Part shown: positions 25,301 to 37,365 of the stretch, one piece after another | Numbering within the stretch: position 1 is the stretch's first letter | How the letters are laid out: each line of letters starts with the position of its first letter | Source: a virus | Length of the DNA: 37,365 bases | Virus record (IMG/VR): IMGVR_UViG_3300050138_000058 | Location: 1-37,365 of that record | Direction: 5' to 3' (one strand) | Notes under the pieces: generated by a model | The model's database searches: none | What the model was told of the DNA's origin: nothing | The model's input: only the letters and a program-made list of their open reading frames with translations | Program-made: the position numbers and the translations under genes

Positions 25301-27075
25301 ATGTGGTGGGTGCTCCTGGCCGTATCCATACTACGATGACTGAGTTTACAAAGACACTCATCTATCGCTCATGGGTACGTTCACAGGCCCTTCGCTCTGC
25401 TACAGAGCAGAGTATGAATCCTGAAGAGACTAGCCAACTTGTTAGTAGCCAACTTAAGAATGCCTTTGATCCTGAAGGCAAGGCAATGGGGACAAACATC
25501 ACGGCTACTGGCGGTCCCTTGCAAGATGCTCTCTATCAGGCCCGCCGTGCCTCACTGACTCAGCCACTCGATGGTACACTGATGGGTAAGCGCGTACATG
25601 ACCTGCTAGAGAAGTACCCACTCTCCCGTCTTTATGCGGCTCCCTTCCAAAAGATTGGCACGAATGCCTTTTCGGAAACGTGGTCAATGATGCCGGGCCT
25701 CGCTGCGGCAAAGGCTAGTGTGCAGCAGCAGTTTAAGAATGGTGGAGACGATTGGGCACGCGCCTACTCCAATCAGATGATCGGAGCGAGTGCCACGGCC
25801 ACCCTGATGATGGCTGCGATGCGCGGACATTTGACTGGTGCTCCACCCGCAGATAAGGACCTACGTGACCAGCAGGTAGCCAATGGGGTGAAGCCCTATA
25901 GCTTTACCTTTGGTGGGGTACGGGTTCCCCTTGATCGCATCCCCTTTGTTGGATCAATGGTGCAGGATACAAAGGATATTGGTGATGGGGTGTCTGCTCT
26001 CCGTGCGCGCCAAGACTCTCAGTCCAAGTATTGGCAAGAGGCACAGGGCAATAAGTATGCCTATATGGACAACCATCCTGTCTTCCAACATATGCGGCAA
26101 ATTGCTGACTTTGTATCGGGTACCCGTGGCACGTTGTCGTCAGATGGTGCAAAAGCACTGTCAGGCATCACACTTAATCTGACAAAGAACTCAACTGATC
26201 CCACATGGTTCGGGTCTGTGTCGCACCTGCTTGAGATCATAACGGGTGGGGATACTGAAGAGAATGGGGCCAAGCTGGCACAGTGGGCACTGACCGAAGC
26301 AAAGACCATGATTACTCCGGGTGCTGCCTTCTGGAAGAGTATCAACTCGGATGGGATTCATGGTGAAATACGCTCCCTCCTTACAGACCTCAAAATTAAG
26401 GCTCCAGGCTATGGCACTGTTGAGCCCAACTACAATATGTTTGGGTCAGAAGTTGAGGCTCCGCCTGCCTTTGCCGACTGGCAGCAGGATCATCATACCA
26501 ATCCAGCGCAGAGTTGTATGCAGGGTGGTCCCGACTGGATACAGACAGCCCTGCTTGCTATGGGTAAGTCTATGCCCGGCATCGCAAAGGCCACTCCAGG
26601 TCAGGATGGCTTGCCTGATGTGGACTGGACTGATCGCGGACAATGGGATCAGGAGAAGGGTGCAGAAGGTGTGTCTCCCTATGCGCGCGTTCATCAGCTA
26701 CTTGCGAGCCCAATGTTCGGTGATAGAAGCTCAGAGGATGTGGTTCGGGAGATCATGGAGAGCGATGAATATAAGAAGCTTCCAGATACGAACCCACTCA
26801 TGCCCGATGGTCCACGATACAATATTATTGCTGAAGTGATGCAGCAGATGAATGAAGCAGCCATCGCCAAGATGGAGTCAGAACCCCGCTATCACAACTT
26901 TGCTTTACAGGTCGAGGCTGCTAAGGAGCAGAAGGAGACTGGCAAGGAAGCGGCAGATAGTATCACTCATGCAGTACGACACGCTATCCTCGGTGACTCA
27001 GCAGCAAAAGTGAATGCACCTACACCCTCTCAAGGAAGTATGATGCACTGGAATACAACCAGAGGTAAGAAATAA
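22399..27075 (+). CDS. Internal virion protein D-like, T7 gp16-like, 1,558 aa
   Basis: The largest gene, in the gp16 position. The first 75 residues are Pro/Ala-rich. Hydrophobic Ala/Gly helices follow (ARGVAQFGTLALLTSGGGPG; TMELGIGAAAGVWAAVRGGG), then a coiled region and about six imperfect F-x-N-A-T repeats at residues 706-830. A C-terminal half resembles other podoviral ejection proteins (AYSNQMIGASATATLMMAAM; YSFTFGGVRVPLDRIPF). T7 gp16 (1,318) starts with a lytic transglycosylase; no ESGG-type catalytic motif is seen here. It is expected to form the inner-membrane end of the ejection channel. Confidence 0.83.
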   Translation: MADDAQAGPPAPVQAESTATPAPPAAPPIQKPGTEQAAYNLAQQIKGSAAGTAETEQSAPTIGQKVANIVSDQVDNAKHMHPLNDAEAGITGAGNMLSNLAVAGARKLRPDAMNNALGILSGQKVTSDTPTARVNPYQISPDQMKVAFGEPASWMDNAARGVAQFGTLALLTSGGGPGLTAAADASIGPRVGIAAAKWTLGTAKVGTLMTIGSDPSTPEFFTKQLQQAPRGSVRGYFGNLLGANPLDPDWLAYTRAEGRNLISAGTMELGIGAAAGVWAAVRGGGQPALETFLATAKPAEEDVAEMAHQVDGTVKVSDIPPDVPPGEPLAAPEAEAAPATPSTAWDRRQAETHMLADIERRSGVANRRMQELNTELQGESRRRSYEMAAAEGEPKYAIQQGNSDVFYDNKPPAPTPDVVMPDHGSAEVEVAQRNEAASQREIAAAGPAKYEAGWRELSKAMKAGAHRADIQQILRDHDIRVPYGIPAEDIQSYVHSLGQMIRGTGTGEGTGKTVEQLAKETAESLNPDEPSTTTMGRFRDWFRSGDDPEAKVTGAGLYIRALGHQSNEVGEALGAAPMSPTAQMNVQKMWQTLMELHVPWRGNASRTGSILQAYGGGAEDNAAELEGGRVEAAGAQEGAPAPREAAGEQATEKLAATQSAITLDPEGLREFGQSLRIANGDPSELLEATRQSMIRETLLRNTKWPPMLPHSQAFRDATGIAMEDPRFPKQATSFTNATENAEAAPRSGKQFPPSSPAFANATDAAATPPPRFPPASTGFKNATENVEATPREEQQFGPSSPAFISATGKAMAKDEPPMSSAMFRAATKASQMTEWDKAKASFSMYMINNMIGGVPTYEKVAMSQMFQMLHLPMETFVGGGPYGIRAVKKAIGGDFSGALADTKAGAAMMTQGLDQFAGLVTEANQAMRAAARSLRSGQSHIDPGSVIFPGGRISPEYFDLGQANYLYNVVGAPGRIHTTMTEFTKTLIYRSWVRSQALRSATEQSMNPEETSQLVSSQLKNAFDPEGKAMGTNITATGGPLQDALYQARRASLTQPLDGTLMGKRVHDLLEKYPLSRLYAAPFQKIGTNAFSETWSMMPGLAAAKASVQQQFKNGGDDWARAYSNQMIGASATATLMMAAMRGHLTGAPPADKDLRDQQVANGVKPYSFTFGGVRVPLDRIPFVGSMVQDTKDIGDGVSALRARQDSQSKYWQEAQGNKYAYMDNHPVFQHMRQIADFVSGTRGTLSSDGAKALSGITLNLTKNSTDPTWFGSVSHLLEIITGGDTEENGAKLAQWALTEAKTMITPGAAFWKSINSDGIHGEIRSLLTDLKIKAPGYGTVEPNYNMFGSEVEAPPAFADWQQDHHTNPAQSCMQGGPDWIQTALLAMGKSMPGIAKATPGQDGLPDVDWTDRGQWDQEKGAEGVSPYARVHQLLASPMFGDRSSEDVVREIMESDEYKKLPDTNPLMPDGPRYNIIAEVMQQMNEAAIAKMESEPRYHNFALQVEAAKEQKETGKEAADSITHAVRHAILGDSAAKVNAPTPSQGSMMHWNTTRGKK
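24529..24888 (+). repeat. F-x-[ND]-A-T amino-acid repeats in the gp16-like protein
   Basis: Six imperfect copies of a unit like P-x-S-x-x-F-x-N-A-T-x-x-A, with the Phe codons at 24538, 24598, 24670, 24733, 24805 and 24865, spaced 20, 24, 21, 24 and 20 codons apart. Copies 2 and 4 share FTNATENAEA/FKNATENVEA; copies 3 and 5 share FPPSSPAFANAT/FGPSSPAFISAT, which suggests a two-unit (about 45-codon) duplication. Confidence 0.8.
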
Positions 27076-27512
27076 TGCCAATAGGCCACAAGGAACATAA
27101 AATCCTTCAGGATCGGCTTGAACATGAAACGGAGATGCGGAAGTCACAGCAGAAATCTGTTCGCCGCGCTCTCAAACTAGCACTTCGGGAATTGAAACGT
27201 CGCCTCAGCGTTCTCAATGGAGAGCGTGCCCGACAGGATGAAGACCGCCTACTCATGGCAAGCAACACTCGTGTGGATGGTCTAATCAATCAGGCTGAGA
27301 CTAAATATGAGGCCCTAAGTGCGCGGCTTCGGGTATTAGAGGATCTACGTCGGATTCAGGAAGGTAGTATAGCTGAGGGACGTGCGGCTATCGATAAGCG
27401 TGCAACCGATATGGCGCGTATGCAGTGGAAGGTTAGCCTTGTGATGACGGGTATCTTCCTGCTCATATCTATTTTAGTAAATGCTGTGTTTCACGTTGTA
27501 GTCCCCAAGTAA
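27075..27512 (+). CDS. Coiled-coil protein with C-terminal membrane anchor
   Basis: A 145-residue protein: basic start, long charged coiled coil (about residues 10-112, many Arg/Glu/Lys) and one hydrophobic helix at the end (KVSLVMTGIFLLISILVNAVFHVVV, about 118-142). This layout resembles XhlA-type holin partners and also tail-anchored proteins. T7 has its holin and spanin near the terminase genes, so a lysis role is reasonable by position. Sequence alone does not decide. Confidence 0.72.
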   Translation: MPIGHKEHKILQDRLEHETEMRKSQQKSVRRALKLALRELKRRLSVLNGERARQDEDRLLMASNTRVDGLINQAETKYEALSARLRVLEDLRRIQEGSIAEGRAAIDKRATDMARMQWKVSLVMTGIFLLISILVNAVFHVVVPK

Positions 27513-27785
27513 ATGCCTGACATCACTCCGGCCCAGCAGAAACTAGTCGAGCAGGCTGATCGCGTACAGGCTATGTTGCTCAATGACTTTGAGGCTATCC
27601 TGAAGCCAGACAAGAATGGGATGACCGCCGCCTCACCAACAGATCGTGCCACGATAGCCCGCTACCTGAAGGACAATAACTTCAGAGTAGATGCCAATAA
27701 CCTTCCGCAGAATCTGGCCGAGATGGTTGCAGCCACTCGTGCTAAACGACCGATGCCTGACGCATCCAAACTCCCAGGTGAATAG
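27513..27785 (+). CDS. terS: Small terminase subunit, T7 gp18-like
   Basis: A 90-residue protein directly before the large terminase, as in T7 (gp18, 89 residues). The segments DRVQAMLLNDFEAILK and SPTDRATIARYLKDNNFRVD are consistent with the small packaging subunits of T7-like phages, which form a ring, bind the concatemer junction and stimulate the motor. The stop overlaps the GTG of the large subunit (TAGTG). Assignment rests on size, pattern and synteny. Confidence 0.78.
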   Translation: MPDITPAQQKLVEQADRVQAMLLNDFEAILKPDKNGMTAASPTDRATIARYLKDNNFRVDANNLPQNLAEMVAATRAKRPMPDASKLPGE

Positions 27786-29596
27786 TGGCTTGGACAAAGG
27801 ACGAAATCCATGAAGCGGGACTTGACGTATTTGCAAACTTTCTGTCCCTGGTGTGGGCACATCTTGGCTTGCCGGAACCTGATGCAGTCCAGCTTGAAAT
27901 GGCCCACTTCCTCCAGTACGGAGATAAGCGGCTCGTACTGGAAGGCTTCCGTGGGGCGGGTAAGACATGGATTACTGGCGCGTTTGCTGTATGGAACCTG
28001 CTCATTGACCAACAGCTTAACGTTCTGGTTGTATCAGCATCTCAAGGGTACGCGGATAAAGTCGCCACATTCATATCACAGATCGTCCGAGACATGCCGA
28101 TCCTCTCCTTCCTTCGTCCACGAGACGATCAGCGATCAAGTGTTATCGCCTTCGACGTGGCAGGTGCGCGGCCCAACCCTGTTCCGTCTGTCTCTTCAGT
28201 AGGACTCGGCGGTCAGATGACGGGAAACCGCTCTGACATCGTGATCGTAGATGACTCTGAGACACCAAAGAACTCCTTCACGGATCTTCTGCGTACCAAG
28301 TTAGCCGTAACTGTAAAGGAGTTTGATGCCCTTCTCAAGCCGAAGAAGGACGCGCGCATCATCTACCTCGGGACGCCACATACTGAAGAGACATTGTATA
28401 ACAAGTTGCGGGAGCTTGGTTATACTCTGGTCATATGGCCGTCTGAAGTCCCAGCGTTTCCCGACAAGTACAAGGACTGTCTCTCGCCGCTTGTCAAGCA
28501 GATGATAGCAAATGGTGTGCCCAGTGGGACACCTATTGAGCCGACACGCCACGGATTAGATGAACTCGCACAGCGTAAAGCTGCGCTTGGATTTACCCAG
28601 TACCAGATGCAGTATATGTTAGACCCGTCCCCGTCCGATCTTGACCGCTTACCGCTCCGTTGTGGAGACTGCATCGTCTATGACTTCGATATTAAAGACA
28701 CACCCATACGGTTTGTCTGGACACGCGACCCTAGATATACCATCCCGAACTATCCCGCTGGAGGAATGGATGGCGATGTGTGGAGAAGTCCCCTCTTCAC
28801 ATCCACTGAGCGTTCTGACTATCAAGGGACAGTCATGGCTATTGATCCATCTGGAAAAGGAACCGATGAAACCGGATACTCCATCGTTCGATATGCACAA
28901 GGGCTTCTCTATTGGGTCGCCTGTGGAGGATATAAGGACGGACTCTCTGACGCTACCCAGCAATCTCTGGCTACTAAAGCAATCCTCCATCGCTGCACAC
29001 ACGTCATCCTTGAACCCAACTATGGAGGGGGAGCCTTCGGACAACTCCTCAAGCCTTGGCTGGTCAAAGTCTTTGAGGAAATGGCTACAGCAAATCCTGA
29101 ACAGAAATATCTAATCCCAGCACTCGTAGAAGACTTCAAGTGGTCCCGTGGGCAGAAGGAACGCCGCATCCTTGACACTTTGGAGCCCTTGATCCAGTCT
29201 CACAAAGTTATCATCTCGCGGGCTCTCATCGACGAAGACATGAAGTGGCGTGGGGCTGATGATGAGAACCAAATGTATAGTGTTATCTACCAGATGACAC
29301 GACTGACGCGGGACAAGGGCTCATTAGCACATGAGGATAGGATCGAGAGCCTAGCAATGGCGGGTGAGTATTGGGCACACCGCATGGCTCGTGACCAGCA
29401 GAAGATGGTGCAGCGCCACAATGATGATGCCCGAGCCAAAGAGCTTAAGAAGATGATGCAGATTAGCCGCATGGGTGGGATAATGATTACTGATATGCGG
29501 ATTGGCCGAGAGATGTCACAAATGCCCAAGCACACGATCCAGAAAGACTCTGGGAATACTCACACCGACTGGAGACGCGACCGTGGCAATTGGTAG
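27785..29596 (+). CDS. terL: Large terminase subunit, T7 gp19-like
   Basis: A 603-residue packaging motor and nuclease. ATPase: Walker A FRGAGKT (55-61), Walker B DIVIVDD (151-157), coupling motif IYLGTPHTEETLY (about 193-205). RNase-H-type nuclease: first acid in AIDPSGKGTDETG (D354), second near VILEPNYGGGAFGQ (E410), third in HEDRIESL (D518). All match the T7 gp19 group, which cuts concatemers and leaves direct terminal repeats; that end type is inferred by relationship. Start is GTG 27785, overlapping the small-subunit stop. Confidence 0.95.
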   Translation: MAWTKDEIHEAGLDVFANFLSLVWAHLGLPEPDAVQLEMAHFLQYGDKRLVLEGFRGAGKTWITGAFAVWNLLIDQQLNVLVVSASQGYADKVATFISQIVRDMPILSFLRPRDDQRSSVIAFDVAGARPNPVPSVSSVGLGGQMTGNRSDIVIVDDSETPKNSFTDLLRTKLAVTVKEFDALLKPKKDARIIYLGTPHTEETLYNKLRELGYTLVIWPSEVPAFPDKYKDCLSPLVKQMIANGVPSGTPIEPTRHGLDELAQRKAALGFTQYQMQYMLDPSPSDLDRLPLRCGDCIVYDFDIKDTPIRFVWTRDPRYTIPNYPAGGMDGDVWRSPLFTSTERSDYQGTVMAIDPSGKGTDETGYSIVRYAQGLLYWVACGGYKDGLSDATQQSLATKAILHRCTHVILEPNYGGGAFGQLLKPWLVKVFEEMATANPEQKYLIPALVEDFKWSRGQKERRILDTLEPLIQSHKVIISRALIDEDMKWRGADDENQMYSVIYQMTRLTRDKGSLAHEDRIESLAMAGEYWAHRMARDQQKMVQRHNDDARAKELKKMMQISRMGGIMITDMRIGREMSQMPKHTIQKDSGNTHTDWRRDRGNW

Positions 29597-31535
29597 GATT
29601 GCGAGCGCATCAAAGGCCAAGCATGGGCACAATCCAGAGCATCCCTATGCTCCAGGCATTCAGCCTGGGGGCCAGATCAATGCCGCAGACATTCCGGTTG
29701 ATGTAATCAGTACCATTGTTCAAGAGACAGTGCAGAGTGGAGCTATCCCACCTACGATCCCTCTATCCCAGACTACGGGAGATGACGCCGACCTTCCATT
29801 AGGGATACCCACATCTGGTGCTGCCGCAGGCACTTACGGTGATTCGACGGATATCCCAGTTGTCACTGTTGACGCTTTGGGACGTATAACGAGCATCGCC
29901 ACGACACCGACTGTGCCAGTGATTCCGCCTGTTGTAGTACCTCCCTCCAGCACCATGCCAGTATGGATGACTGTAGGGGATGATGGTGACCTGCTCACGC
30001 TGGCCCTACAGCAGACGCCACAGGCTGGTGCTCCGGGAAGTGCAGGAGCACAGGGGATTCCAGGGCCACAAGGCCCGATTAGCAATGGTCCGGTGTGGCA
30101 GGGGGCTGGTGATGATGGCGACCTCCTAATAAATGAGGTTCCCACATCTGGTGCTGCTGCTGGTACCTATGGTGATGCGACTGACATTCCTGTTGTCTCG
30201 GTAGATGCCCTTGGCCGGGTACTATCAATCACTACTACACCAGTAGTCTTTCCAACCGATGTGGATATACCACAGAATCCGGCCAACCTGATGCCTGTGT
30301 GGATGGGTGCAGGTGATGATGCTGATTTGTTGCCATCGGCCAGTCCAGGCGCCCTGCCTCTCGCCGGAGGCTCGATGCAGGGTATCATCTGGTTGCAGGG
30401 TATACGGTACAACTGCGTATTTGTGAATGATGCCAACTACTCAGTCAAACCGGGTGATAACATCATCATCTACACTGGGCTCTCAGCGAATCGGACTGTC
30501 ACCTTTCCACTTGCTGCTGTGGCTCAAGGTCAATCAGTTCAGATTTGGGATGGAACAGGTAATGCCCCAGGCGCATCGAATACTGTCAACATCTATGTAG
30601 CTATTACAGCCGGTGATACAGTCAATGCTCAGACTTCTCCATTGCTTGCTGTTGCTGTGGCGTTCGGTCAGGCCACAATGGTCCCCCTACTCACAGGTGG
30701 GTGGATCTTAGCTGCCTCAACCCTTGCGGTTGGTGGAATATCTGGATCAAGTAATGGTATTCCAAACGTTACTACACAGGCCAACTGGCAGGATGCCCAG
30801 GGCTTCTTTGGCTATTCGACTGCCCGTGCTGCTGCATACATTGCTGGTGCGCTCATGCTCGGTATCACGCAAACTACAGCCCTGTCAGGCACACTCGCTC
30901 TTACTGCAAACTCTGCACCTATTCAGTTAGTGACCTCAACAGCCGCAGAGGCCATCACAGTTGTTAATCTTGGCAGCTACTATGGAATTATCAAGAATAC
31001 AGGGACGTACTTACTGACAGTGACCTCTACAGGCGGATCATCCATTCCACTTGTCCCTGGTGCAACCCTGGTCTATTGCACATCCGGCATCACTGGTTCA
31101 ATTATCATCGATGTTATCTCACTGACAGGAACCATTGGTACAGGCGGGAGCGCCACTCCAATCCAGGTTGCCACAGTTGACCTTGCAGCCCAGGCGGCTG
31201 CGATCACCGCTACCACGATGCACACAACTCTAGTGGCGGGCCGCTACCGGGCTGAGTGGATTGCACAGATTACAACGGTTGGATCAGTTTCCTCTTCATT
31301 AGGCGGAACGAATGGGTTTCAGATGGAGTGGACAAGCCAAGATACATCGGCTGCTACTGCTTCGGGTCCGACAATCCCATCGGCTGGCAATGCCACTACT
31401 ATTGCACTAGCTGGTGTTGTCCCAATGAATTGTACGGCGGCAACAAACATTCAGTATATCTTCGGTTATACCTCGGCAGCCGCTGCAACCATGAAGTATT
31501 CGCTCCACATTCGCTTGTACTACCTCGGACCTTAA
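29583..31535 (+). CDS. Tail fibre / receptor-binding protein
   Basis: A 650-residue fibre from GTG 29583, with GGAG eight bases upstream, overlapping the terminase by 14 bases. Two repeats of IPTSGAAAGTYGDSTDIPVV-T/S-VDALGR occur (protein about 81-111 and 189-218), a module common in tail fibres. A collagen-like stretch GAPGSAGAQGIPGPQGP lies between them, and P-V-W-x-x-x-GDD-x-DL recurs. The C-terminal ~100 residues (VAGRYRAEWIAQITTVGSVS ... MKYSLHIRLYYLGP) are probably the receptor-binding head. No chaperone or depolymerase motif is apparent. The usual gp17 N-terminal anchor domain is not recognisable. Confidence 0.82.
   Translation: MAIGRIASASKAKHGHNPEHPYAPGIQPGGQINAADIPVDVISTIVQETVQSGAIPPTIPLSQTTGDDADLPLGIPTSGAAAGTYGDSTDIPVVTVDALGRITSIATTPTVPVIPPVVVPPSSTMPVWMTVGDDGDLLTLALQQTPQAGAPGSAGAQGIPGPQGPISNGPVWQGAGDDGDLLINEVPTSGAAAGTYGDATDIPVVSVDALGRVLSITTTPVVFPTDVDIPQNPANLMPVWMGAGDDADLLPSASPGALPLAGGSMQGIIWLQGIRYNCVFVNDANYSVKPGDNIIIYTGLSANRTVTFPLAAVAQGQSVQIWDGTGNAPGASNTVNIYVAITAGDTVNAQTSPLLAVAVAFGQATMVPLLTGGWILAASTLAVGGISGSSNGIPNVTTQANWQDAQGFFGYSTARAAAYIAGALMLGITQTTALSGTLALTANSAPIQLVTSTAAEAITVVNLGSYYGIIKNTGTYLLTVTSTGGSSIPLVPGATLVYCTSGITGSIIIDVISLTGTIGTGGSATPIQVATVDLAAQAAAITATTMHTTLVAGRYRAEWIAQITTVGSVSSSLGGTNGFQMEWTSQDTSAATASGPTIPSAGNATTIALAGVVPMNCTAATNIQYIFGYTSAAAATMKYSLHIRLYYLGP
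29768..30336 (+). repeat. Repeats in the tail fibre gene
   Basis: Two copies of a PTSGAAAGTYGD-x-TDIPVV-x-VDALGR unit (about 29809-29900 and 30142-30225) and four copies of a GDD-x-DL motif (near 29779, 29979, 30109 and 30310), three preceded by P-V-W. The second and third nucleotide copies are alike enough to indicate duplication. Confidence 0.75.
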
Positions 31536-31546
31536 TAGGAGACACA

Positions 31547-31891
31547 ATGGCTTACGGATCAATCAAGAGGGTCGGGCCACTAGCCATGATCCTGACCACG
31601 CCCACCAACATCTATCAGGGTGGGAATGGATCAGCCCTCATCTATGACAAGATCGCCCAGATCCACATTGTCAACAAAACATCCTCTCCTGCTACCTTCA
31701 CCATGTATCTCGGCGCTACAGGTGCATCGGCAGCTGGTACAGAACTCTTTGTTGGTGTCAATATCCCTGCCAATGGATACTTCGACTGGTTCACACCAAC
31801 GAAACTTGTGTCAACTGAATTTCTCGTAGGGTTCGCCAGTGTCACTTTGGCACTTACCATCACCATTATGACGGAGCAATTCGTCGTCTAA
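31547..31891 (+). CDS. Hypothetical fibre-adjacent protein, beta-rich
   Basis: A 114-residue protein with a clear GGAG five bases before ATG 31547. Sequence is beta-rich and low in charge (IAQIHIVNKTSSPATFTMYL; AAGTELFVGVNIPANGYFDW; LALTITIMTEQFVV), typical of small carbohydrate-binding or fibre-associated jelly-roll proteins. The frame is open further upstream inside the fibre gene, but that extension has no ribosome site. Close coupling to the fibre gene suggests an accessory tail role. Confidence 0.75.
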   Translation: MAYGSIKRVGPLAMILTTPTNIYQGGNGSALIYDKIAQIHIVNKTSSPATFTMYLGATGASAAGTELFVGVNIPANGYFDWFTPTKLVSTEFLVGFASVTLALTITIMTEQFVV

Positions 31892-31899
31892 GGAGCGGT

Positions 31900-32199
31900 A
31901 TGAAGTTCCCGGCTGGTATTCCGAAGTCAATGCCTTCACACATGGGTTCGATTCCTGTTCATTTCGTTGATCGGCTCAAGCTCAAAGATGACACAAAGCT
32001 CATGGGATGCTATCGTCCCAAGCATCGTGAGATCCAACTGCGTGCAGGGAATCTACACCCAATGGCAGTGCGTCAAACACTGTGGCATGAATGGGTTCAT
32101 GCTATTCTCATAGATGCAAATGCAGTGCCGAAAGACCACGACCAAGAAGAAGCAGTTTGTGATGCAATGGGTATGGCCCTCGCTGTACTCTTCACCTAA
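31900..32199 (+). CDS. Zinc metallopeptidase-like protein (HExxH)
   Basis: A 99-residue protein with a perfect GGAG ribosome site. The segment TLWHEWVHAILIDANA carries HEWVH, the HExxH zinc site, and is followed 19 residues later by EEAVCDAMGMALAVL, whose acidic residues could supply the third ligand as in gluzincins. Similar short HExxH proteins occur among tailed phages with no known substrate. It lies between fibre-associated and small membrane genes. Peptidase activity is inferred from the motif alone. Confidence 0.78.
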   Translation: MKFPAGIPKSMPSHMGSIPVHFVDRLKLKDDTKLMGCYRPKHREIQLRAGNLHPMAVRQTLWHEWVHAILIDANAVPKDHDQEEAVCDAMGMALAVLFT

Positions 32200-32211
32200 C
32201 CGGAGCCTATA

Positions 32212-32430
32212 ATGCCTGGACCAACACCGCCTACCAGTACCCATGACTACGGTGGACACATGAAGGGTGGCTTCCATGAAGGAACCCGGCGTGATGCGCC
32301 GACCGAACGCGGGTCCAGAGAGACCCGAGAGAAACGGAGTGATAGCACACGGGCATCAGGGAACCTCGGCCCGACTGGTCCCGATGATCCGGCAAACGTT
32401 AGTCCCTCAAATCAAGGAGCCGCTGCATAA
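32212..32430 (+). CDS. Hypothetical charged, probably disordered protein
   Basis: A 72-residue protein rich in Gly, Arg, Ser and Pro (THDYGGHMKGGFHEGTRRDA; RGSRETREKRSDSTRASGNL) with no hydrophobic core, so probably disordered. GGAG precedes the ATG. Its stop overlaps the next ATG (TAATG). No family recognised. Confidence 0.65.
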   Translation: MPGPTPPTSTHDYGGHMKGGFHEGTRRDAPTERGSRETREKRSDSTRASGNLGPTGPDDPANVSPSNQGAAA

Positions 32431-32615
32431 TGATCTCCCTTATCATCACCCTGGTCATTGTCGGGGTTCTGCTGTACTGTTTCAATGACTTCGTGCCGAT
32501 GGACCCAAAGTTCAAGAAGCTCATCAATGTCCTTGTCTGCCTTGCGGCTGCCCTCTATGTCCTTCATGGCTTCGGCTATGGGTCGGACTTCGGGCATCAT
32601 CACTGGAGAGACTAA
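32430..32615 (+). CDS. Small two-helix membrane protein
   Basis: A 61-residue protein with two hydrophobic helices: MISLIITLVIVGVLLYCF and LINVLVCLAAALYVLHGFGY, joined by a short PMDPKFKK loop, and a His-rich end (HHHW). This is the layout of a common class of phage small membrane proteins and also of class II holins. With no endolysin nearby, a holin role is only a possibility. Confidence 0.75.
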   Translation: MISLIITLVIVGVLLYCFNDFVPMDPKFKKLINVLVCLAAALYVLHGFGYGSDFGHHHWRD

Positions 32616-33793
32616 TGCGAAAGTGGTTTATTGCAGCCCTCGTAGCCCTGGCTAGTGTCTGCACAGCCCAGGCTCAGACCCTTACCCTTACGGGTGTCCC
32701 CCAGATCGCAGTAGTCGGGGATACCATCCACCCCACCGCCGTCTATACGCCAGCGGGTGGGGTTGCTGGGTACTGTAAGACGTGCTGGTTCGCCACCACG
32801 AACACGGTAGCCTCACGGACTACTACAACCATGAGTAACTATGGTACATGGTCAAAGGCTCCAGGGTCAACAGTGCCGATAGTGGCCCTTATACCGGGCA
32901 CTACGGTCATCTACGGTACCGTATATGGTACTACGATCCGTGCCATAGCGACCATGCTGGTGACAGCCCAGGTCATCAATCTACCCCCTCCGGTGGGTAC
33001 ACCAAACATGCCAGCGGGCATGACGGTAGTCTGTCAGACCGGGCAGGTGACAGCAATGACTGTCACAGGCTCCAGTGTAGCCTTTGGTGGCCCAAAGCCT
33101 TGTACGTGGCAGGATAACGGCCCAGGGACAGGTTCTATTGGGCTTGCGACGGGTGCCAAGAATCCTGATGGCAGTGTGAACACAGATATCCAGAAGACGG
33201 GCTACCGTGTCATGTTTCCAGCCGGAAAGGTCAATGATCCGGCATGGGGAATGTATACGCCTCATGCAGGTGGCACTGGGACGTACTACATCAGTTGGTT
33301 AGAGCGTCAGGAGGTTCATGGTGCCTATCCCGCCATCCAGAAGGTGATGAATAGTCTGGACAGTAAGGCATGGGCTCCCAAGGGTCCGAATGGAGACCTG
33401 ACCATCATGTCTTGGATGGACTTCAGCTATTTCACTCCAACTGCTATCATTGGCTTGAACTTCCAGGGGGAAGATAACGCCAACATCCCTGACAATAACC
33501 TGACTGGTAAGTCTGGCACTGTGGCCGCAGCGGCTACCATGTCCCTGCCTGGAGTGCAGAAGGGTGATGGGTCATGGGATCAGGAAGAAGTGCTGATTGT
33601 AGGATCAGGGAACGTGGGTACAAGTTCTGTGACGTTCTTTGTCAATGGAAAGCAGGTTGCGAAGGCAACAGGTGTGACCAATGCCTCAGTCTGGAATGAA
33701 ACAGACCAGTATGTCTCTCGGTCTGTGTATAGTGGGACTCAAGCGATTACAACTCACATGGACTTCGATCAGGTAACGATTGCTGTCAAGTAA
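32615..33793 (+). CDS. Secreted protein with Ig-like and ConA-like (jelly-roll) regions
   Basis: A 392-residue protein that starts with a classical signal peptide (MRKWFIAALVALASVCTAQA, cleavage near residue 19-21). Residues about 22-120 look Ig-like and Thr/Val-rich. The C-terminal ~260 residues have features of laminin-G/ConA-type jelly rolls: YRVMFPAGKVNDPAWGMYTP, a YYISWLERQEVHG strand, GDGSWDQEEVLIV and SVTFFVNGKQVAKATGV. Such domains bind or cleave polysaccharides. Catalytic residues are not recognised. Export by the host suggests action in the periplasm or outside, possibly on host glycans. Confidence 0.75.
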   Translation: MRKWFIAALVALASVCTAQAQTLTLTGVPQIAVVGDTIHPTAVYTPAGGVAGYCKTCWFATTNTVASRTTTTMSNYGTWSKAPGSTVPIVALIPGTTVIYGTVYGTTIRAIATMLVTAQVINLPPPVGTPNMPAGMTVVCQTGQVTAMTVTGSSVAFGGPKPCTWQDNGPGTGSIGLATGAKNPDGSVNTDIQKTGYRVMFPAGKVNDPAWGMYTPHAGGTGTYYISWLERQEVHGAYPAIQKVMNSLDSKAWAPKGPNGDLTIMSWMDFSYFTPTAIIGLNFQGEDNANIPDNNLTGKSGTVAAAATMSLPGVQKGDGSWDQEEVLIVGSGNVGTSSVTFFVNGKQVAKATGVTNASVWNETDQYVSRSVYSGTQAITTHMDFDQVTIAVK

Positions 33794-33810
33794 GGGGAGG
33801 GTAACGATCA

Positions 33811-33906
33811 ATGTCAACTAACTCGGAGGTCCGTATGTATATCGGTGGCGGGTTCATTCTGTTCTGTATCATCCTGTGGCTCATCTTCGGTCGGAGCGGT
33901 AAGTAA
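33811..33906 (+). CDS. Tiny single-pass membrane protein (31 or 23 aa)
   Basis: ATG 33811 lies ten bases behind GGGGAGG (33795-33801) and gives 31 residues; ATG 33835 in the same frame has its own GGAGG (33825-33829) five bases upstream and gives 23 residues (MYIGGGFILFCIILWLIFGR...). Both forms contain the same single hydrophobic helix ending in RSGK. Two nested starts with strong ribosome sites recall dual-start holins, but the size is very small. The stop directly abuts the next ATG. Confidence 0.6.
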   Translation: MSTNSEVRMYIGGGFILFCIILWLIFGRSGK

Positions 33907-34119
33907 ATGGCTGATCTGAAGAGTGAGCTAGAGCGCGAAGGAACGATGACTCAGGTCTCCGTGAAGGAGCACCTTGGAGACCGTCCGTCGCACGGTGTCA
34001 GTGACTCTGGGCCCATGAGCTTTCCGCTTTGGGGCACGGGCGAAGAGGCATGTTTGCACTCAAGCCGCGATCCAAGGGTGACGGAAGGTGGATTCATTGG
34101 ACAGGAGTTGGATAAGTAG
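33907..34119 (+). CDS. Hypothetical charged protein, 70 aa; last gene of the late block
   Basis: A soluble acidic protein (MADLKSELEREGTMTQVSVK...) with DRPSHGVSDSGPMSFPLWGT in the middle. Starts immediately after the stop of the tiny membrane gene (TAAATG). It is followed by the long non-coding junction. No family recognised. Confidence 0.65.
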   Translation: MADLKSELEREGTMTQVSVKEHLGDRPSHGVSDSGPMSFPLWGTGEEACLHSSRDPRVTEGGFIGQELDK

Positions 34120-34124
34120 TAACA

Positions 34125-34172
34125 TCTGATATATTGTGCGTTATGTGTGGCTCTAACGCACAGTATATTAGG
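34125..34172 (+). terminator. 19-bp hairpin at the end of the late operon
   Basis: Left arm 34125-34143 and right arm 34154-34172 pair over 19 positions, 16 Watson-Crick and three G-U; the core TGTGCGTTA / TAACGCACA is perfect. Loop is ten bases (TGTGTGGCTC). It starts six bases after the last late gene. Only CTTTCG follows, so it lacks a full U-tract; it may terminate phage-polymerase transcripts or protect mRNA 3' ends. Confidence 0.6.
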
Positions 34173-34313
34173 CTTTCGTACATAGTGTCTTTACGTAATA
34201 CTGCATAGCCGCAATACTATCGCTCATAGCATTGAAGGTATGCAAGATATGGGTATTTTGGCACAAATTTTCGTGTCCACATACGCATCGTGACGGGCCT
34301 CCATTTACCCCCA

Positions 34314-34400
34314 TGCTACCGTCACGCGTGCTACCATACCGCGCCCCCATAGCACGGCAGCACGCATGACAGCGACACGTATGCACGCGTGACGGTAGCA
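34314..34400 (+). repeat. Perfect 18-bp inverted repeat with 51-base spacer
   Basis: TGCTACCGTCACGCGTGC at 34314-34331 is exactly complementary to 34383-34400. Each arm also contains the self-complementary CACGCGTG. The spacer repeats TGCTACC (34329-34335) and CCCCCAT. A cruciform, a packaging signal or a protein-binding pair are possible readings. Confidence 0.85.
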
Positions 34401-34412
34401 CACTGATTGCAG

Positions 34413-34460
34413 GCATGAGGACATGAGTGCATGAGGACATGCGTGCATGAGTGCATGGGG
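34413..34460 (+). repeat. Six tandem 8-bp repeats, consensus RCATGAGK
   Basis: Units in order: GCATGAGG, ACATGAGT, GCATGAGG, ACATGCGT, GCATGAGT, GCATGGGG. All keep CATG in phase. The first four units form two 16-bp copies with one difference. The array looks iteron-like, with a binding site about every 8 bp, but could also be simple-repeat slippage. Confidence 0.85.
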
Positions 34461-34504
34461 GGCTAGGTGGCTGGTTCGCAGTCTTTTGAACATTGTGTCC
34501 ACCA

Positions 34505-34578
34505 TTGGTGACAGTTTATTACATTCATGTAACGGACAATCATTTACTATTGCACTCTAGATCGAATAGGTTTACTAT
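34505..34578 (+). promoter_or_regulatory. Candidate host-type early promoters and operator-like dyad
   Basis: Two sigma70-like pairs precede the early-type genes: TTGGTG (34505-34510) with TGTAAC (34528-34533), and TTGCAC (34550-34555) with TACTAT (34573-34578), each with 17-base spacing but weak matches. A dyad TTACAT-TC-ATGTAA (34519-34532) lies across the first -10 region. Phage T7 uses host-polymerase promoters at the equivalent left end, so the setting fits. Confidence 0.35.
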
Positions 34579-34609
34579 CCTTCTATCACCGAAGTCAAGG
34601 GGAAACAAA

Positions 34610-34753
34610 ATGCGAGTCGGCGTGATAGTGTACTGGAGAGCGGGTGGGACATTTCGCGGCGCCATGACAATGGCGAAGCTTGAACAGTGGCTTGCGTCGC
34701 ACGGTCCGATGATTGCTTGCGTCACTATCGAGGGGATAGCCGAGGATCGCTGA
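34610..34753 (+). CDS. Small early protein, 47 aa
   Basis: The first gene after the junction. AGGGGA lies seven bases before ATG 34610. The product MRVGVIVYWRAGGTFRGAMT... continues into KLEQWLASHGPMIACVTIEG. No family recognised. Its leader, TCAAGGGGAAACAAAATGCGA split across the start, is almost copied at 35126. Confidence 0.6.
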   Translation: MRVGVIVYWRAGGTFRGAMTMAKLEQWLASHGPMIACVTIEGIAEDR

Positions 34754-34791
34754 CAGGCGATTGCTGGCTTCCCAATCCCGAGGGGTTTCTA

Positions 34792-34962
34792 ATGTCATCG
34801 CGATTCAGCAAGGTTATCCACTTGCGGTCCGAGAACGACGCGGCCAAGGCCGTCTGCGGTCGCAAGCTCAAGAGTAATGAGTTTGCATTTACCGATGCGG
34901 ACACATTCGGTGGCAACGGTATGGAATGCTTGCGTTGCATGTCCACAAAACAGGACGCCTAA
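34792..34962 (+). CDS. Small Cys-containing protein (possible zinc finger), 56 aa
   Basis: Starts at ATG 34792 behind GAGGGG. Cysteines at 22 (AVCGRKL) and 46, 49 (MECLRCMS) give a C-x23-C-x2-C arrangement; with His10 it could form a zinc site. Comparable small C-G-R...C-x2-C proteins are frequent in phages with unknown roles. Coupled to the next gene by TAATG. Confidence 0.65.
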   Translation: MSSRFSKVIHLRSENDAAKAVCGRKLKSNEFAFTDADTFGGNGMECLRCMSTKQDA

Positions 34963-35123
34963 TGACTCTCAAACAGATCAAAGCGGCACTTAATTACGCG
35001 CGTCTGGGCCATTGTGGCGCGCGAATACCGGATATGCACGGCCCACTCATGGTCTCGCATAGTAAGATTCGCATATTCGATAGTGTAACAAAGGTTACAC
35101 CGCGCTACGCGAAAGATCGCTGA
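34962..35123 (+). CDS. Small basic protein, 53 aa
   Basis: Begins in the TAATG overlap at 34962. The product MTLKQIKAALNYARLGHCGA... ends DSVTKVTPRYAKDR. The N-terminal helix followed by a basic stretch could bind nucleic acid, but no family is recognised. Within the gene, GTGTAAC-AAAG-GTTACAC (35083-35100) forms a perfect 7-bp hairpin or operator-like dyad. Confidence 0.6.
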   Translation: MTLKQIKAALNYARLGHCGARIPDMHGPLMVSHSKIRIFDSVTKVTPRYAKDR

Positions 35124-35139
35124 CATCAAGGGGAAACAA

Positions 35140-35226
35140 ATGCGAACGGCAAGCAATATCGCCATTTGGCTTTTTGTCCTATTTACTATGTATGGCATTC
35201 TACTCGCGGCTCGGATCGTCAAATGA
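35140..35226 (+). CDS. Tiny membrane protein, 28 aa
   Basis: ATG 35140 follows AGGGGA at a good distance. The product is MRTASNIAIWLFVLFTMYGI plus LLAARIVK: one hydrophobic helix ending in basic residues. Stop overlaps the next ATG (ATGA). The repeated leader shared with the gene at 34610 supports expression. Confidence 0.6.
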   Translation: MRTASNIAIWLFVLFTMYGILLAARIVK

Positions 35227-35573
35227 CTAGACTATATCGCATAGCCTATATCCTTGTCATGCTTGTCGCGTCGGCAGTCAGTGTGCGTGCTCAGGCACCT
35301 AGCGCCTTAGTCGGCAAATGGCAATGGCGCTCGGCAGACACAGCTACGTGTGGTGCGTGCGTCTGGACTATTGACCTGAGAACCAACCACAAAGCTACGG
35401 CAGTCTTTCACGGTAATGGGTACGAACGGGCCTACTACGTCGGCAAGTGGACCACTCATTACGACCTACTATGCTTAGTGGAATATGGGCGTCATACGTG
35501 TTGGACGTATGGACTAGTACAGGGTAGTGGTAACCTTCAGCTTGATTATCACACATACTATCCGTTGAGGTAG
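35223..35573 (+). CDS. Early-region secreted protein, four Cys
   Basis: A 116-residue protein starting in an ATGA overlap at 35223. N terminus MTRLYRIAYILVMLVASAVSVRAQ is a signal peptide with a likely A-x-A-type cleavage around residue 23. The mature part begins ALVGKWQWRSADTATCGACV and holds four Cys (CGAC and later C...C), suited to disulfides in the periplasm. The sequence looks beta-rich, with VGKW occurring twice. Unknown family. An exported early product suggests superinfection exclusion or surface modification, but that is inference. Confidence 0.7.
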   Translation: MTRLYRIAYILVMLVASAVSVRAQAPSALVGKWQWRSADTATCGACVWTIDLRTNHKATAVFHGNGYERAYYVGKWTTHYDLLCLVEYGRHTCWTYGLVQGSGNLQLDYHTYYPLR

Positions 35574-35578
35574 TCACA

Positions 35579-35695
35579 ATGAATACGCGACCGCTCGGTC
35601 ACGCAATGAGAAAGGTTACTTGGCAGCAATGGGGTATGATCGCATTTGTCACCGTCTTGACGGTGTGGGGCCTCTACCTGGCGCTGACGACATGA
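35579..35695 (+). CDS. Tiny membrane protein, 38 aa
   Basis: ATG 35579, product MNTRPLGHAMRKVTWQQWGM followed by IAFVTVLTVWGLYLALTT. Basic N-terminal half, one C-terminal hydrophobic helix. A GAGGTAG run precedes the start. Stop overlaps the next ATG (ATGA). Confidence 0.6.
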   Translation: MNTRPLGHAMRKVTWQQWGMIAFVTVLTVWGLYLALTT

Positions 35696-35859
35696 AGCCG
35701 ACTACTCCATTTATCTGGCCGGTGTCAATTCCCAGCCACGCGTCACGCCATGCCAAGCGTCGTATAGCGTCACGCGTCCTGTACAGCCTCATTGTGGCTA
35801 ATGTCGTCATATGGGGCTATAACCTCTATATGTACCTCACAATATGGGGGGTCAAATGA
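35692..35859 (+). CDS. Small membrane protein, 55 aa
   Basis: Starts in ATGA overlap at 35692. Basic, His-containing N terminus (SRHAKRRIASR) followed by one hydrophobic segment VLYSLIVANVVIWGYNLYMY. Probably N-inside single pass. The frame is open upstream to 35620, but the overlap start is preferred. Stop overlaps the next ATG. Confidence 0.65.
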   Translation: MKPTTPFIWPVSIPSHASRHAKRRIASRVLYSLIVANVVIWGYNLYMYLTIWGVK

Positions 35860-36029
35860 GATGCTATCACTATGCTATTGATCGTGTGGAGGGGGGCACT
35901 TGGCGCATGGAGGGCACTTGGCGCATAGTCGCATGGACCAAAGGATCAGACGTTACGAGCGCGCGTCCGATTGCCTATTTCCTGACGGAGACTGACGCAC
36001 GCAAGTATCTTCTCCAAAGGTGCGTCTAA
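35856..36029 (+). CDS. Small soluble protein with internal duplication, 57 aa
   Basis: Starts in ATGA overlap at 35856. Product MRCYHYAIDRVEGGTWRMEG... contains GTWRME-GTWRIV from a tandem 18-base duplication (35894-35911 and 35912-35929, first 15 bases identical). The end, YFLTETDARKYLLQRCV, is helical. No family recognised; the fold could be a small beta-alpha domain. Confidence 0.65.
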   Translation: MRCYHYAIDRVEGGTWRMEGTWRIVAWTKGSDVTSARPIAYFLTETDARKYLLQRCV

Positions 36030-36133
36030 TGTTCTACATAGAAGCATTGCTGACAGTGTGGGCGGGAGTGCTAGTCGGCTTAGGGGGCATTGCCATAGCC
36101 CACCTATACGGAATCATGCGAGGACCAAAATAA
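36029..36133 (+). CDS. Tiny membrane protein, 34 aa
   Basis: Starts in TAATG overlap at 36029. Product MFYIEALLTVWAGVLVGLGG then IAIAHLYGIMRGPK: a single Gly-containing hydrophobic helix with a basic C-terminal end. No family recognised. Confidence 0.6.
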   Translation: MFYIEALLTVWAGVLVGLGGIAIAHLYGIMRGPK

Positions 36134-36134
36134 C

Positions 36135-36431
36135 ATGCTATATCGCATATACACTGCGGACATTAACCGGGCCGCTACGCTTGCCGTCGTCGCAAAGGCA
36201 TATGACAGTTTTACAGCCATAGAAGCACTCGGTTATTTCAAGGGTACGGCGGAACCTTCCCTCGTGATTGAATTGCTGACGGAAGATAGTTGGAGAGATC
36301 GAAGTAAGGTTACCACACTTGCTGACGCAATACGACAGCTTAACAATCAGCAAGCTGTGTTAGTCTCGTGCTGTGCCGAATGGCATTTTAGCGCAATAGC
36401 GCCACGCGAGCCGCGCGGATCGTGCGTATGA
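36135..36431 (+). CDS. Conserved-looking small soluble protein, 98 aa
   Basis: Product begins MLYRIYTADINRAATLAVVA. The pattern of an R-x-Y-T-x-D-x-N-R start, a G-Y-F-K-G-T-A-E-P-S-L-V-I-E core and LADAIRQLNNQQAVLVS resembles small proteins common in phages and bacteria that have no assigned function. I judge the resemblance from memory of the pattern only. It starts two bases after the previous stop and shares ATGA with the next gene. Confidence 0.68.
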   Translation: MLYRIYTADINRAATLAVVAKAYDSFTAIEALGYFKGTAEPSLVIELLTEDSWRDRSKVTTLADAIRQLNNQQAVLVSCCAEWHFSAIAPREPRGSCV

Positions 36432-36526
36432 CTGACACCACTATGACGATCTGTGCATATGTTGGCGTCGCAATTGGCATAGGCTTACTGATCTATTGCT
36501 GCTATCTCATTCGTACGGGCAAATGA
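36428..36526 (+). CDS. Tiny membrane protein, 32 aa
   Basis: Starts in ATGA overlap at 36428. Product MTDTTMTICAYVGVAIGIGL plus LIYCCYLIRTGK: one hydrophobic helix containing Cys, ending in basic residues. Stop overlaps the next ATG. No family recognised. Confidence 0.6.
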   Translation: MTDTTMTICAYVGVAIGIGLLIYCCYLIRTGK

Positions 36527-36681
36527 AGCGCCTAATCATACAAATCATATTCGTATGTGGGGCACTTATCACGCTACTTGCGTATGACTGCGCGACGACA
36601 CCACCCGCACCTTGTCCCAACCATATGAGGTCTAAAACTTGTGTCAAAATTGATAGCGTGGGGGTTACAGGTACTCATTAG
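36523..36681 (+). CDS. Small exported or membrane-anchored protein, 52 aa
   Basis: Starts in ATGA overlap at 36523. MKRLIIQIIFVCGALITLLA is a hydrophobic signal or anchor, followed by YDCATTPPAPCPNHMRSKTC. The Cys after the helix is not in a proper lipobox. Three Cys in the outside part may form a disulfide. Last gene of the tiny-gene run; a hairpin follows. Confidence 0.62.
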   Translation: MKRLIIQIIFVCGALITLLAYDCATTPPAPCPNHMRSKTCVKIDSVGVTGTH

Positions 36682-36685
36682 TCGA

Positions 36686-36704
36686 CCGCTAATGTCAGTA
36701 GCGG
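36686..36704 (+). terminator. Short hairpin after the tiny-gene run
   Basis: CCGCTA (36686-36691) pairs with TAGCGG (36699-36704) around ATGTCAG. No U-tract follows. It sits in the 87-base gap before the last gene and may end or process the early transcript. Confidence 0.3.
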
Positions 36705-36768
36705 CCTATTGCTGGAGATTAGGCGAACGGATTCATGCACGTACATATAACCGAAAATAGGGGGGACC

Positions 36769-37365
36769 ATGAGACAAGATAGTGACGACAACGTGAACGA
36801 CACACTAGACTTTGCGGCTATCCTCCGGGATAACGCTGGCTTAGCGCGTATGGTCGCACACTACGTCAAGACGCAATTAGATTGCGTCTCGGAGCAGACT
36901 TGTGAAGAGCGTGAACGTGCTGCGCGTAATGAAGGATACGAGGATGGCCAGCACGCGGCGGACTGTGATAAGGAACACGTCGAGGATATGCCCCGTTGCT
37001 TGCGTCCTAGTCTTGACGGATTAATGATTGAGGTCGTCGGATCGGACCAGATCGCACCCGCAAGACAGGTACATGCAATGTATACGAAATGGAAAAATGG
37101 TACACTTTCCACCGAAGAAAAGCAGATCGGATTGGGCAAGAGGACGAACCCAGTGGACCGCATTGCGTCCTATCTTATCTATCGGGCAGACGACGAAACG
37201 ATCAGCGTAGGCTGTATGAAGTTTAACGTGGCGGAAATCGAGTATCTTGCGAAAGCAATGGGGTGGGTGACCGTCTCAAATGCGGACATCGATGGGGCCT
37301 ATCAACGTGGCGTCCGCGACGCTACCATCGCGCAAGCCATACTAGACGAAATGGCGAAGATACTG
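36769..37365 (+). CDS. Hypothetical early protein, 3'-truncated
   Basis: Open from ATG 36769 (GGGGGGA run just upstream) to the window end with no stop: 199 residues so far. It begins MRQDSDDNVNDTLDFAAILR, contains a Cys-rich helical part (ERERAARNEGYEDGQHAADC) and continues KWKNGTLSTEEKQIGLGKRT, then AKAMGWVTVSNADIDGAYQR. Acidic and soluble. G-Y-x-x-G and A-Y-x-x-G helices resemble small counting motifs but no family is recognised. It is larger than its neighbours and may start the next functional block. Confidence 0.7.
   Translation, partial: MRQDSDDNVNDTLDFAAILRDNAGLARMVAHYVKTQLDCVSEQTCEERERAARNEGYEDGQHAADCDKEHVEDMPRCLRPSLDGLMIEVVGSDQIAPARQVHAMYTKWKNGTLSTEEKQIGLGKRTNPVDRIASYLIYRADDETISVGCMKFNVAEIEYLAKAMGWVTVSNADIDGAYQRGVRDATIAQAILDEMAKIL

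Follow-up and report, generated by a model that had tools for sequence, protein, structure and literature searches.

The gp0.3 protein of phage T3 counters restriction by destroying S-adenosylmethionine (SAM) (PMC7877911), BREX (bacteriophage exclusion) is countered likewise, as cited in PMC12255297, and removal of a SAM-AMP alarm has been proposed for a phage SAM-AMP lyase. In T3, this SAM-lyase-type gene, 0.3, lies in the first operon, and the next gene, 0.6, encodes a small membrane protein, gp0.6 (KD 1.95; KD values are the best 19-residue Kyte-Doolittle mean of each protein). T7 also has a short early-region membrane protein, gp0.5, whose gene overlaps 0.6A by 4 nt, and phage ctgrD200 encodes small membrane proteins in its early region as well. 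Here, we describe a cassette of nine open reading frames (ORFs) at positions 35140–36681 of IMGVR_UViG_3300050138_000058, a linear, T7-like IMG/VR phage record of 37,365 nt that was analyzed whole (the window). One of these ORFs, which starts at 36135, encodes a SAM-lyase-like protein, and six others encode tiny membrane proteins. We put the probability at roughly 0.5 that the cassette is an accessory early counter-defense operon, in which a SAM-lyase-like enzyme is combined with orphan inner-membrane micro-effectors.

What the 36135 protein appears to have in common with the T3 enzyme is the lyase-family fold and the placement of key residues. The T3 enzyme has 152 residues and the cassette protein only 98, with a much shorter hairpin, and kinship between the two is visible only through family models and intermediates. 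Moreover, T3 has one membrane micro-protein, whereas the cassette has a run of six. The cassette micro-ORFs resemble T7 gp0.5 and the ctgrD200 proteins in kind, but no sequence kinship was found, and neither phage has a local run as dense as the five in 1653 bases described below.

A Tiled Run of Nine ORFs in an Early-Type Region

The window has a T7-like gene order (primase/helicase, DNA polymerase, exonuclease, portal, capsid and large terminase subunit, TerL) and ends before the place of a single-subunit RNA polymerase gene, which is not within it. Only one close relative was found, IMGVR_UViG_3300037233_000016 (hereafter G001; 47,733 bases), which is 98–100% identical across most of the window. 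Scans of the viral_contigs set with single proteins (the 36135 protein, TerL, the exported protein and the 55- and 52-residue ORFs) returned G001 alone each time, and a scan with a TerL alignment returned at least 80 loci at 39–47% identity. A megablast search of 20000–37365 against 50,697 phage records gave no match, and the closest TerL in this phage set is that of ctgrD200, at 48.5%.

The ends of G001 overlap each other (47607–47733 equals 116–242), and a single-subunit RNA polymerase ORF starts at about 2157 (PF00940, E 2e-85). When the ends are joined, the late genes are followed by the cassette, two more early ORFs, a hairpin, a few small ORFs, RNA polymerase and primase/helicase. The hairpin is terminator-like, with 11 pairs (11580–11605 of the G001 locus L002). 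With this polymerase and the T7-like gene order, the phage is, judged from its genes, of the Autographiviridae type, and the position of the cassette in G001 is that of the class I early genes of T7 and T3. The preliminary description of the window, made by a model from the sequence alone, had called the region early-type, and the place of the cassette in G001, between late genes and RNA polymerase, bears this out. LUZ100, RHEph01, S-CBP2 and ctgrD200 have an integrase-sized ORF before the polymerase, whereas none was seen between cassette and polymerase in G001. At the self-overlap of the G001 contig (1–332 and 47607–47733), a 116-base stretch is repeated at a distance of 216 bases inside an ORF.

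The cassette and its leader comprise the following features.

35116–35139, plus strand: leader with a Shine-Dalgarno (SD)-like AAGGGGA ahead of the cassette, within a 25-nt element
35140–35226, plus strand: 28-residue membrane micro-ORF, KD 2.13; identical in G001
35223–35573, plus strand: 116-residue exported protein, ATGA overlap; a signal helix followed by beta strands in a low-confidence model
35579–35695, plus strand: 38-residue membrane ORF as first described, KD 1.87; its SD and first six codons are those of the gene for an exported protein of 180 residues, which G001 has intact
35606–35695, plus strand: 29-residue core of the 35579 membrane ORF, the version found in G001
35692–35859, plus strand: 55-residue membrane ORF with a basic N-terminal tail, KD 1.49; ATGA overlap
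35856–36029, plus strand: 57-residue soluble ORF with an 18-bp tandem repeat; ATGA overlap
36029–36133, plus strand: 34-residue membrane micro-ORF, KD 2.15; TAATG overlap
36135–36431, plus strand: 98-residue SAM-lyase-like protein of phrog_16022, with a PII fold in the model; G33, E40 and Q72 invariant in 17 aligned sequences, its own included
36428–36526, plus strand: 32-residue membrane micro-ORF, KD 2.17; ATGA overlap
36523–36681, plus strand: 52-residue membrane-anchored ORF with a Cys-containing tail, KD 2.18; ATGA overlap; tail probably outside by the positive-inside rule

All nine ORFs listed in the preliminary description are thus present and tile 35140–36681, including the six of 28–55 residues with one hydrophobic segment each. 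Its statement that nearly all are joined by ATGA or TAATG overlaps holds for six of the eight junctions (five ATGA, one TAATG), whereas at 35573/35579 and 36133/36135 the ORFs are 5 nt and 1 nt apart. The 35856 protein is not duplicated, as had been proposed: it has merely an 18-bp tandem repeat (94% identical, 35891/35909) that covers about six residues. The 35579 ORF exists as a 38-residue frame, but is not conserved in that form; the protein shared with G001 is the 29 residues from the ATG at 35606. The 25-nt element in the leader, which contains the ribosome site, occurs at 34585–34609 and at 35116–35140, ahead of two early genes; the copies are 84% alike, and the element is a possible recombination site for gene swapping.

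The 36135 Protein Resembles Phage SAM Lyases

The 36135 protein matches phrog_16022, a family without assigned function (E 5e-7), as do all 16 aligned sequences, the window's included. Scans of viral contigs with growing alignments yielded 13 distinct further relatives, and Tunturiibacter phage Tunturi_3, Synechococcus phage S-CBP2 and Delftia phage IME-DE1 carry further relatives; a scan of bacterial genomes for relatives found none. (Alignment A5 left out L103, L104, L105, L110 and L111, which are identical to others, and L097, which is the same as L002; alignment A6 left out L102, which is close to L100.) The S-CBP2 relative belongs to phrog_16022 at E 4.6e-43 and the IME-DE1 relative at 6e-9. 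The gene of the former (L121, 1739–2020) is likewise an early-region gene and precedes those for integrase and RNA polymerase.

A structure model built from a five-row alignment (predicted local distance difference test score, pLDDT, 84) has the order strand-helix-strand-strand-helix-strand, that is, a PII/GlnB-like ferredoxin fold. The structure ranked first on alignment is the phage SAM lyase Svi3-3 (PDB 6zm9, 6znb), with Z 10.9 and a root-mean-square deviation (rmsd) of 2.0 over 84 residues at 16% identity; unlike the 36135 protein, Svi3-3 has additional residues ahead of the first strand, and its hairpin loop is longer. The SAM-AMP lyase of C. botulinum and the phage candidate AcrIIIB4 are also described as having a PII fold and the same conserved Glu and Gln (PMC12255297), and structures 9gad and 9gab align with Z 9.4 and 9.3. 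The best matches in BFVD are uncharacterized proteins of cyanophages P-HM2, P60 and S-CBP2, of a siphovirus and of IME-DE1.

The residues point the same way. The only invariant columns among the 17 sequences are T27, G33, E40 and Q72, and position 35 is aromatic in all. Profile alignment to Svi3-3 places E40 on the catalytic Glu69 and Q72 on Gln104, and from the motif order we infer that G33 and aromatic 35 correspond to Gly56 and Tyr58 of the lyases. In SAM lyases of demonstrated activity strict conservation is limited to three residues, which the source does not single out, with Gly56, Tyr58, Glu69 and Gln104 discussed as conserved and SAM-binding, and changes to Glu69 lower activity 1500- to 4500-fold (PMC7877911). 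At the level of families, with E up to 1 allowed, PF23780 (S-AdoMet_lyase) matches 7 of the 16 members, the best of them at 5.6e-5; it matches IME-DE1 gp11 at E 3e-5 (24.4 bits) and the S-CBP2 relative at E 0.003 (17.9 bits). With E up to 0.1, the T3 SAM lyase family, phrog_2226 (T3 gp0.3, E 6e-54), matches six of the 16, the best of them at 4.7e-4, as well as S-CBP2 at 6e-4 and IME-DE1 at 9e-4. Together, fold and key residues suggest that the 36135 protein is a compact PII-fold protein that is SAM-lyase-like.

Several results weigh against this reading or against the operon built on it. Taken alone, the window protein matches PF23780 only at E 0.11 (12.9 bits, with a curated cut-off of 28), and for this reason we use the term SAM-lyase-like and do not count the protein among the SAM lyases. 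DUF3574 (PF12098), which has no stated function, finds 12 of 16 members under the same E limit as PF23780 and so exceeds it in number (best E 3.6e-6), and an hhalign comparison with T3 gp0.3 alone gave a probability of 1.3%. Canonical PII proteins are tied with the lyase in Z (10.2 and below; rmsd 3.0), and Foldseek places the PII-like SbtB first (E 6e-4) and the SAM lyase 20th. In the model, the loop between strands 2 and 3 (27–35 and 38–48) has about two residues, compared with 10–12 in the lyases (PMC12255297); the T-loop of the SAM-AMP lyase, with its conserved Cys66, has no counterpart in this short hairpin. The window copy also has Ala at position 8 (codon 36156–36158), where 15 of the 16 aligned sequences, that of G001 included, have Glu (YTED motif); the S-CBP2 and IME-DE1 relatives likewise have no Glu there. 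As for the operon, the predicted signals are close to chance: terminator-like sites in L002 number 4 versus 3.4 in shuffles, a shuffle-level count, and sigma-70-like sites number 9 versus 6.6 in the window and 11 versus 5.9 (standard deviation 2.5) in L002, a modest excess only. Finally, the four shorter membrane ORFs yielded no accepted relative in protein searches, which were confined to family libraries.

Could the protein be a sensor instead of an enzyme? GlnK-AmtB and SbtB-SbtA are pairs of a PII-type sensor and a membrane partner. The 36135 protein might similarly sense adenine nucleotides and regulate a membrane partner, either a micro-protein or a host transporter, as the Foldseek rank of SbtB, a sequence profile that touches SbtB (E 0.08–0.26) and the membrane protein genes surrounding 36135 would suggest. 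However, the T-loop, the means by which canonical PII proteins bind partners (PMC12255297), is nearly absent from the model, the invariant positions match lyase residues (with Glu and Gln aligned directly) and lyase models match the family. We consider the sensor unlikely.

Three neighboring annotations deserve comment. The S-CBP2 relative exceeds the DUF3574 cut-off, at 40 bits, and its matches suggest, at the level of sequence, that DUF3574 belongs to the same PII-fold superfamily; the window protein scores 13 bits, under the curated cut-off of 25. In the literature searched, DUF3574 turned up in a paper on plant SET proteins. Both phrog_2226 and the T3 gene 0.3 record (L117, 901–1359) are labeled SAM-dependent methyltransferase, and the Tunturi_3 relative (L009, 2492–2770) is annotated as ATP-dependent DNA ligase; these labels look misnamed.

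More Tiling and Local Membrane Enrichment than Expected by Chance

Within 34100–36900, the cassette itself forms the best chain of tiled ORFs, with nine over 1542 bases (the 36428 ORF entering with a GTG start at 36422). Only 1 of 500 dinucleotide shuffles attains this span, and no best chain in a shuffle has more than seven ORFs. On the minus strand, the same stretch gives a five-ORF chain of 868 bases, slightly over the 95% point of the shuffles (814).

KD values of at least 1.49, a threshold fixed after the weakest member was seen, are reached by six of the seven cassette ORFs of 28–60 residues. The corresponding fraction is 416/8306 (5.0%) among shuffled ORFs and 32/378 (8.5%) among ORFs on both strands of the window, those of the cassette included, giving binomial probabilities of 1e-7 and 2e-6. 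A strict filter (KD 1.6 plus an SD or a coupled ATG, the KD value again picked with the values known) retains five membrane micro-ORFs in 1653 bases, as compared with a shuffle mean of 0.16, and five were attained in none of 200 shuffles. The local enrichment in tiny membrane proteins noted in the preliminary description is therefore real, and both it and the tiling are above chance. The same filter finds no membrane micro-ORF in the small-gene stretch between exonuclease and portal, but two in the stretch after TerL (31536–34120; 0.77 per kb, with a shuffle mean of 0.10 and 1 of 200 shuffles reaching two), so membrane enrichment is not restricted to the cassette. The post-TerL ORFs, of 61 and 31 residues (the latter at 33811–33906), are possible lysis or late membrane proteins.

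Neither the kind of gene nor the overall density is new among phages. Strict-filter counts are one in T7 (0.85 per kb), one in T3 (1.09), four in ctgrD200 (0.72), one in LUZ100 (0.26), one in TRX32-1 (0.16) and none in S-CBP2 or RHEph01, and the whole early region of G001 has seven in 6990 bases. At 1.0 per kb, G001 is thus like T7 and ctgrD200 (0.7–0.9 per kb) and T3. The cassette reaches 3.0 per kb, being a chosen stretch, and 2.3 per kb across 34600–36768. Since kind and overall density are already known, the distinctive feature is the local run, and only this cluster is unusual. Among annotated early proteins of up to 70 residues in T7, T3, LUZ100, TRX32-1, RHEph01, ctgrD200 and S-CBP2 (IME-DE1 being outside the count), 5/29 have a membrane segment, compared with 6/7 small cassette proteins (Fisher P 0.0014); the reference count omits minus-strand genes and genes above the size limit, S-CBP2 was counted by eye and annotation of the shortest genes varies among the records. 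With the upstream small ORFs 34610, 34792 and 34962 added to the cassette, itself a chosen stretch, the fraction is 6/10 (P 0.017). Small membrane ORFs (up to 100 residues) also lie within 2 kb of 36135-gene relatives at 8 of 13 loci (L099, L101, L102, L106, L107, L109, L112 and L115, the relative gene itself being unmarked in L112); since this count lacks a control, we draw no claim from it.

Codon usage gives a fainter signal. For the six membrane ORFs pooled (with the 29-residue core standing for 35579), the log-odds is +0.041 (standard error, SE, 0.054) in frame and lies between −0.10 and −0.34 in the five remaining frames, as compared with +0.227 for long training genes, which weakly favors the claimed coding frames. 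The synonymous-only score is −0.025 (SE 0.026), which gives no coding support. It is consistent with most membrane micro-ORFs being young, nearly neutral, tolerated hydrophobic ORFs with little or no function, as are the gain, loss and fusion of micro-genes between near-identical genomes (see below) and the fact that the two longest, of 55 (35692) and 52 (36523) residues, have no relative besides G001 in viral_contigs and none in the phage set. However, such ORFs would not be expected to pass the strict filter at five versus 0.16 and to be absent between exonuclease and portal, nor to tile so tightly with overlaps; in addition, the eight codons changed between the window and G001 include no stop or frameshift, although this divergence has no power. 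We regard neutrality of most micro-ORFs as rather unlikely.

Searches with the remaining cassette sequences added little. The whole cassette as DNA and the 57-residue soluble ORF had no match in the phage set. Matches of membrane micro-ORFs to Gemini_mov, phrog_13896 (E 7e-4), phrog_36203, phrog_27834 and phrog_28176 were rejected as matches of hydrophobic segments. For the exported protein at 35223, a Pfam match to PA2201_N (E 0.022) was far under the cut-off and was discarded, and the single-sequence model is poor (pLDDT 56.5). This protein has a weak likeness (E 0.014) to the second small exported early protein of G001 (L095, 1792–2106).

Tiny Membrane Genes Appear to Be Swapped between Near-Identical Genomes

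Base-by-base alignment places 742 extra bases in G001 at 35595/35596. They hold the gene of a 180-residue exported protein with the same initial MNTRPL, additional small ORFs and, last, the membrane gene, which starts at the ATG matching 35606 and has its own ATGA overlap. The 38-residue ORF of the window is thus a junction (window 35579–35612 versus L002 8704–9474) between the SD and first six codons of the exported gene and the 29-residue membrane gene, with a deletion in the window lineage as the simpler direction. Upstream, the block 34651–34755 is placed elsewhere in G001, where the shared part of 34610 lies between the 34962-type and 35140-type genes. G001 also has a 37-residue membrane gene (42976–43089), of which the window retains only the last 11 codons and stop, and has two more membrane micro-genes than the window in all.

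Beyond these rearrangements, the cassette differs from G001 at eight codons, six nonsynonymous and two synonymous, which are too few for tests of selection by the ratio of nonsynonymous to synonymous change (dN/dS). In G001, five of the six membrane ORFs keep their full length and their overlaps, and the proteins of four of these five are identical; since the divergence is so small, this conservation carries no evidential force. Between these two near-identical genomes, whole genes of the run and its surroundings have been gained, lost or fused.

Both contigs are metagenomic, and one breakpoint falls at a short shared word, GATCGCTGACA, as might be seen if the differences from G001 were assembly errors and the 38-residue and 34610 ORFs chimeras. 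We think this very unlikely, since it is in the early region that the breakpoints are concentrated, with 98–100% identity across most of the genome, as phage mosaicism predicts; the remainder of the cassette is in any case independent of these junctions.

The genes flanking the cassette are as follows.

34610–34753, plus strand: 47-residue ORF; last 29 codons (from 34664) common to G001
34757–34792, plus strand: remnant of the 37-residue membrane micro-gene, 11 codons plus stop and no start; intact in G001
34792–34962, plus strand: 56-residue soluble Cys-containing ORF; G001 DNA identical
34962–35123, plus strand: 53-residue soluble ORF, TAATG overlap; only the first part common to G001
36769–37365, plus strand: the early gene that follows, cut off by the contig end; mosaic relative to a 223-residue gene of G001

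In-frame codon scores of the upstream ORFs 34792 and 34962 are +0.118 and +0.010 per codon, and neither has a PHROG match below E 0.06. No Rfam family was found in 33500–37365 and no tRNA in the window, and when repeated words were sought as candidate phage promoters, nothing but the end repeats of G001 emerged. A long stretch without convincing genes, 34120–34609, where the window and G001 diverge, is a candidate genome end; it holds a perfect 18-bp inverted repeat (34314–34331/34383–34400) and 8-bp CATGAG-type tandem repeats. Within the DNA polymerase gene, 1329–1572 differs densely from G001 in near-identical surroundings and is apparently a recombination tract. Directed mutagenesis there had been suspected; the idea was dropped, since the cluster of differences is of this recombination-like kind.

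How the Cassette Might Act

If the cassette is a counter-defense operon, how would it work? Host RNA polymerase would transcribe the run at once upon entry, and the overlapping stops and starts would couple translation. In SAM lyases, the active sites lie where the subunits of a trimer meet, and SAM is converted to MTA and homoserine lactone. The 36135 protein would likewise act between trimer subunits, cleaving SAM or a signal derived from it, and the loss of SAM would starve SAM-dependent defenses, such as type I restriction and BREX, or a SAM-AMP type alarm would be removed. The enzyme half of this mechanism is proposed from fold, invariant residues and position. The membrane micro-proteins may act as separate, fast-evolving and optional inner-membrane effectors, for example in exclusion or inhibition of a membrane protein; we propose this tentatively, from hydrophobicity, position and turnover, on little evidence.

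The preliminary description had instead envisioned one concerted effect on the host envelope, in which the micro-proteins jointly cause exclusion, depolarization or inhibition of membrane machinery. The six membrane proteins do lie in one tiled run, and five of them are kept at full length in G001. No homology links the six to each other or to a target, however: no shared sequence was noticed and no shared relatives were found, a cofactor-enzyme-like gene interrupts the run and the micro-genes of the region are individually replaceable. As members are gained, lost and fused between near-identical genomes, independent accessory genes fit better than one machine, and the joint effect is unsupported and seems to us quite improbable. 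The further suggestion of an undescribed host-takeover module survives in part. A link to takeover is supported through the soluble 36135 protein, since it is SAM-lyase-like, but early small membrane proteins are already known in T7, T3 and ctgrD200.

A broader scheme, which we offer as a long shot, is that phrog_16022, DUF3574 and the phage SAM lyases form one PII-fold enzyme superfamily and that its miniature member and the membrane micro-proteins are one counter-defense unit. The enzyme would remove SAM or a SAM-derived alarm, and the membrane proteins would block a membrane effector that the alarm opens.

For phrog_16022, which spans cyanophage, Delftia, Tunturiibacter and metagenomic phages, reading the cassette as a counter-defense operon provides a concrete and easily testable enzymatic hypothesis, and a relation to the lyases is suggested for DUF3574 of Pfam as well. 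At 98 residues and with its T-loop nearly missing, a SAM-lyase-like protein would represent this enzyme in minimal form. The cassette itself is a clean example, from two near-identical genomes, of the rapid swapping of tiny membrane genes in a phage early region.

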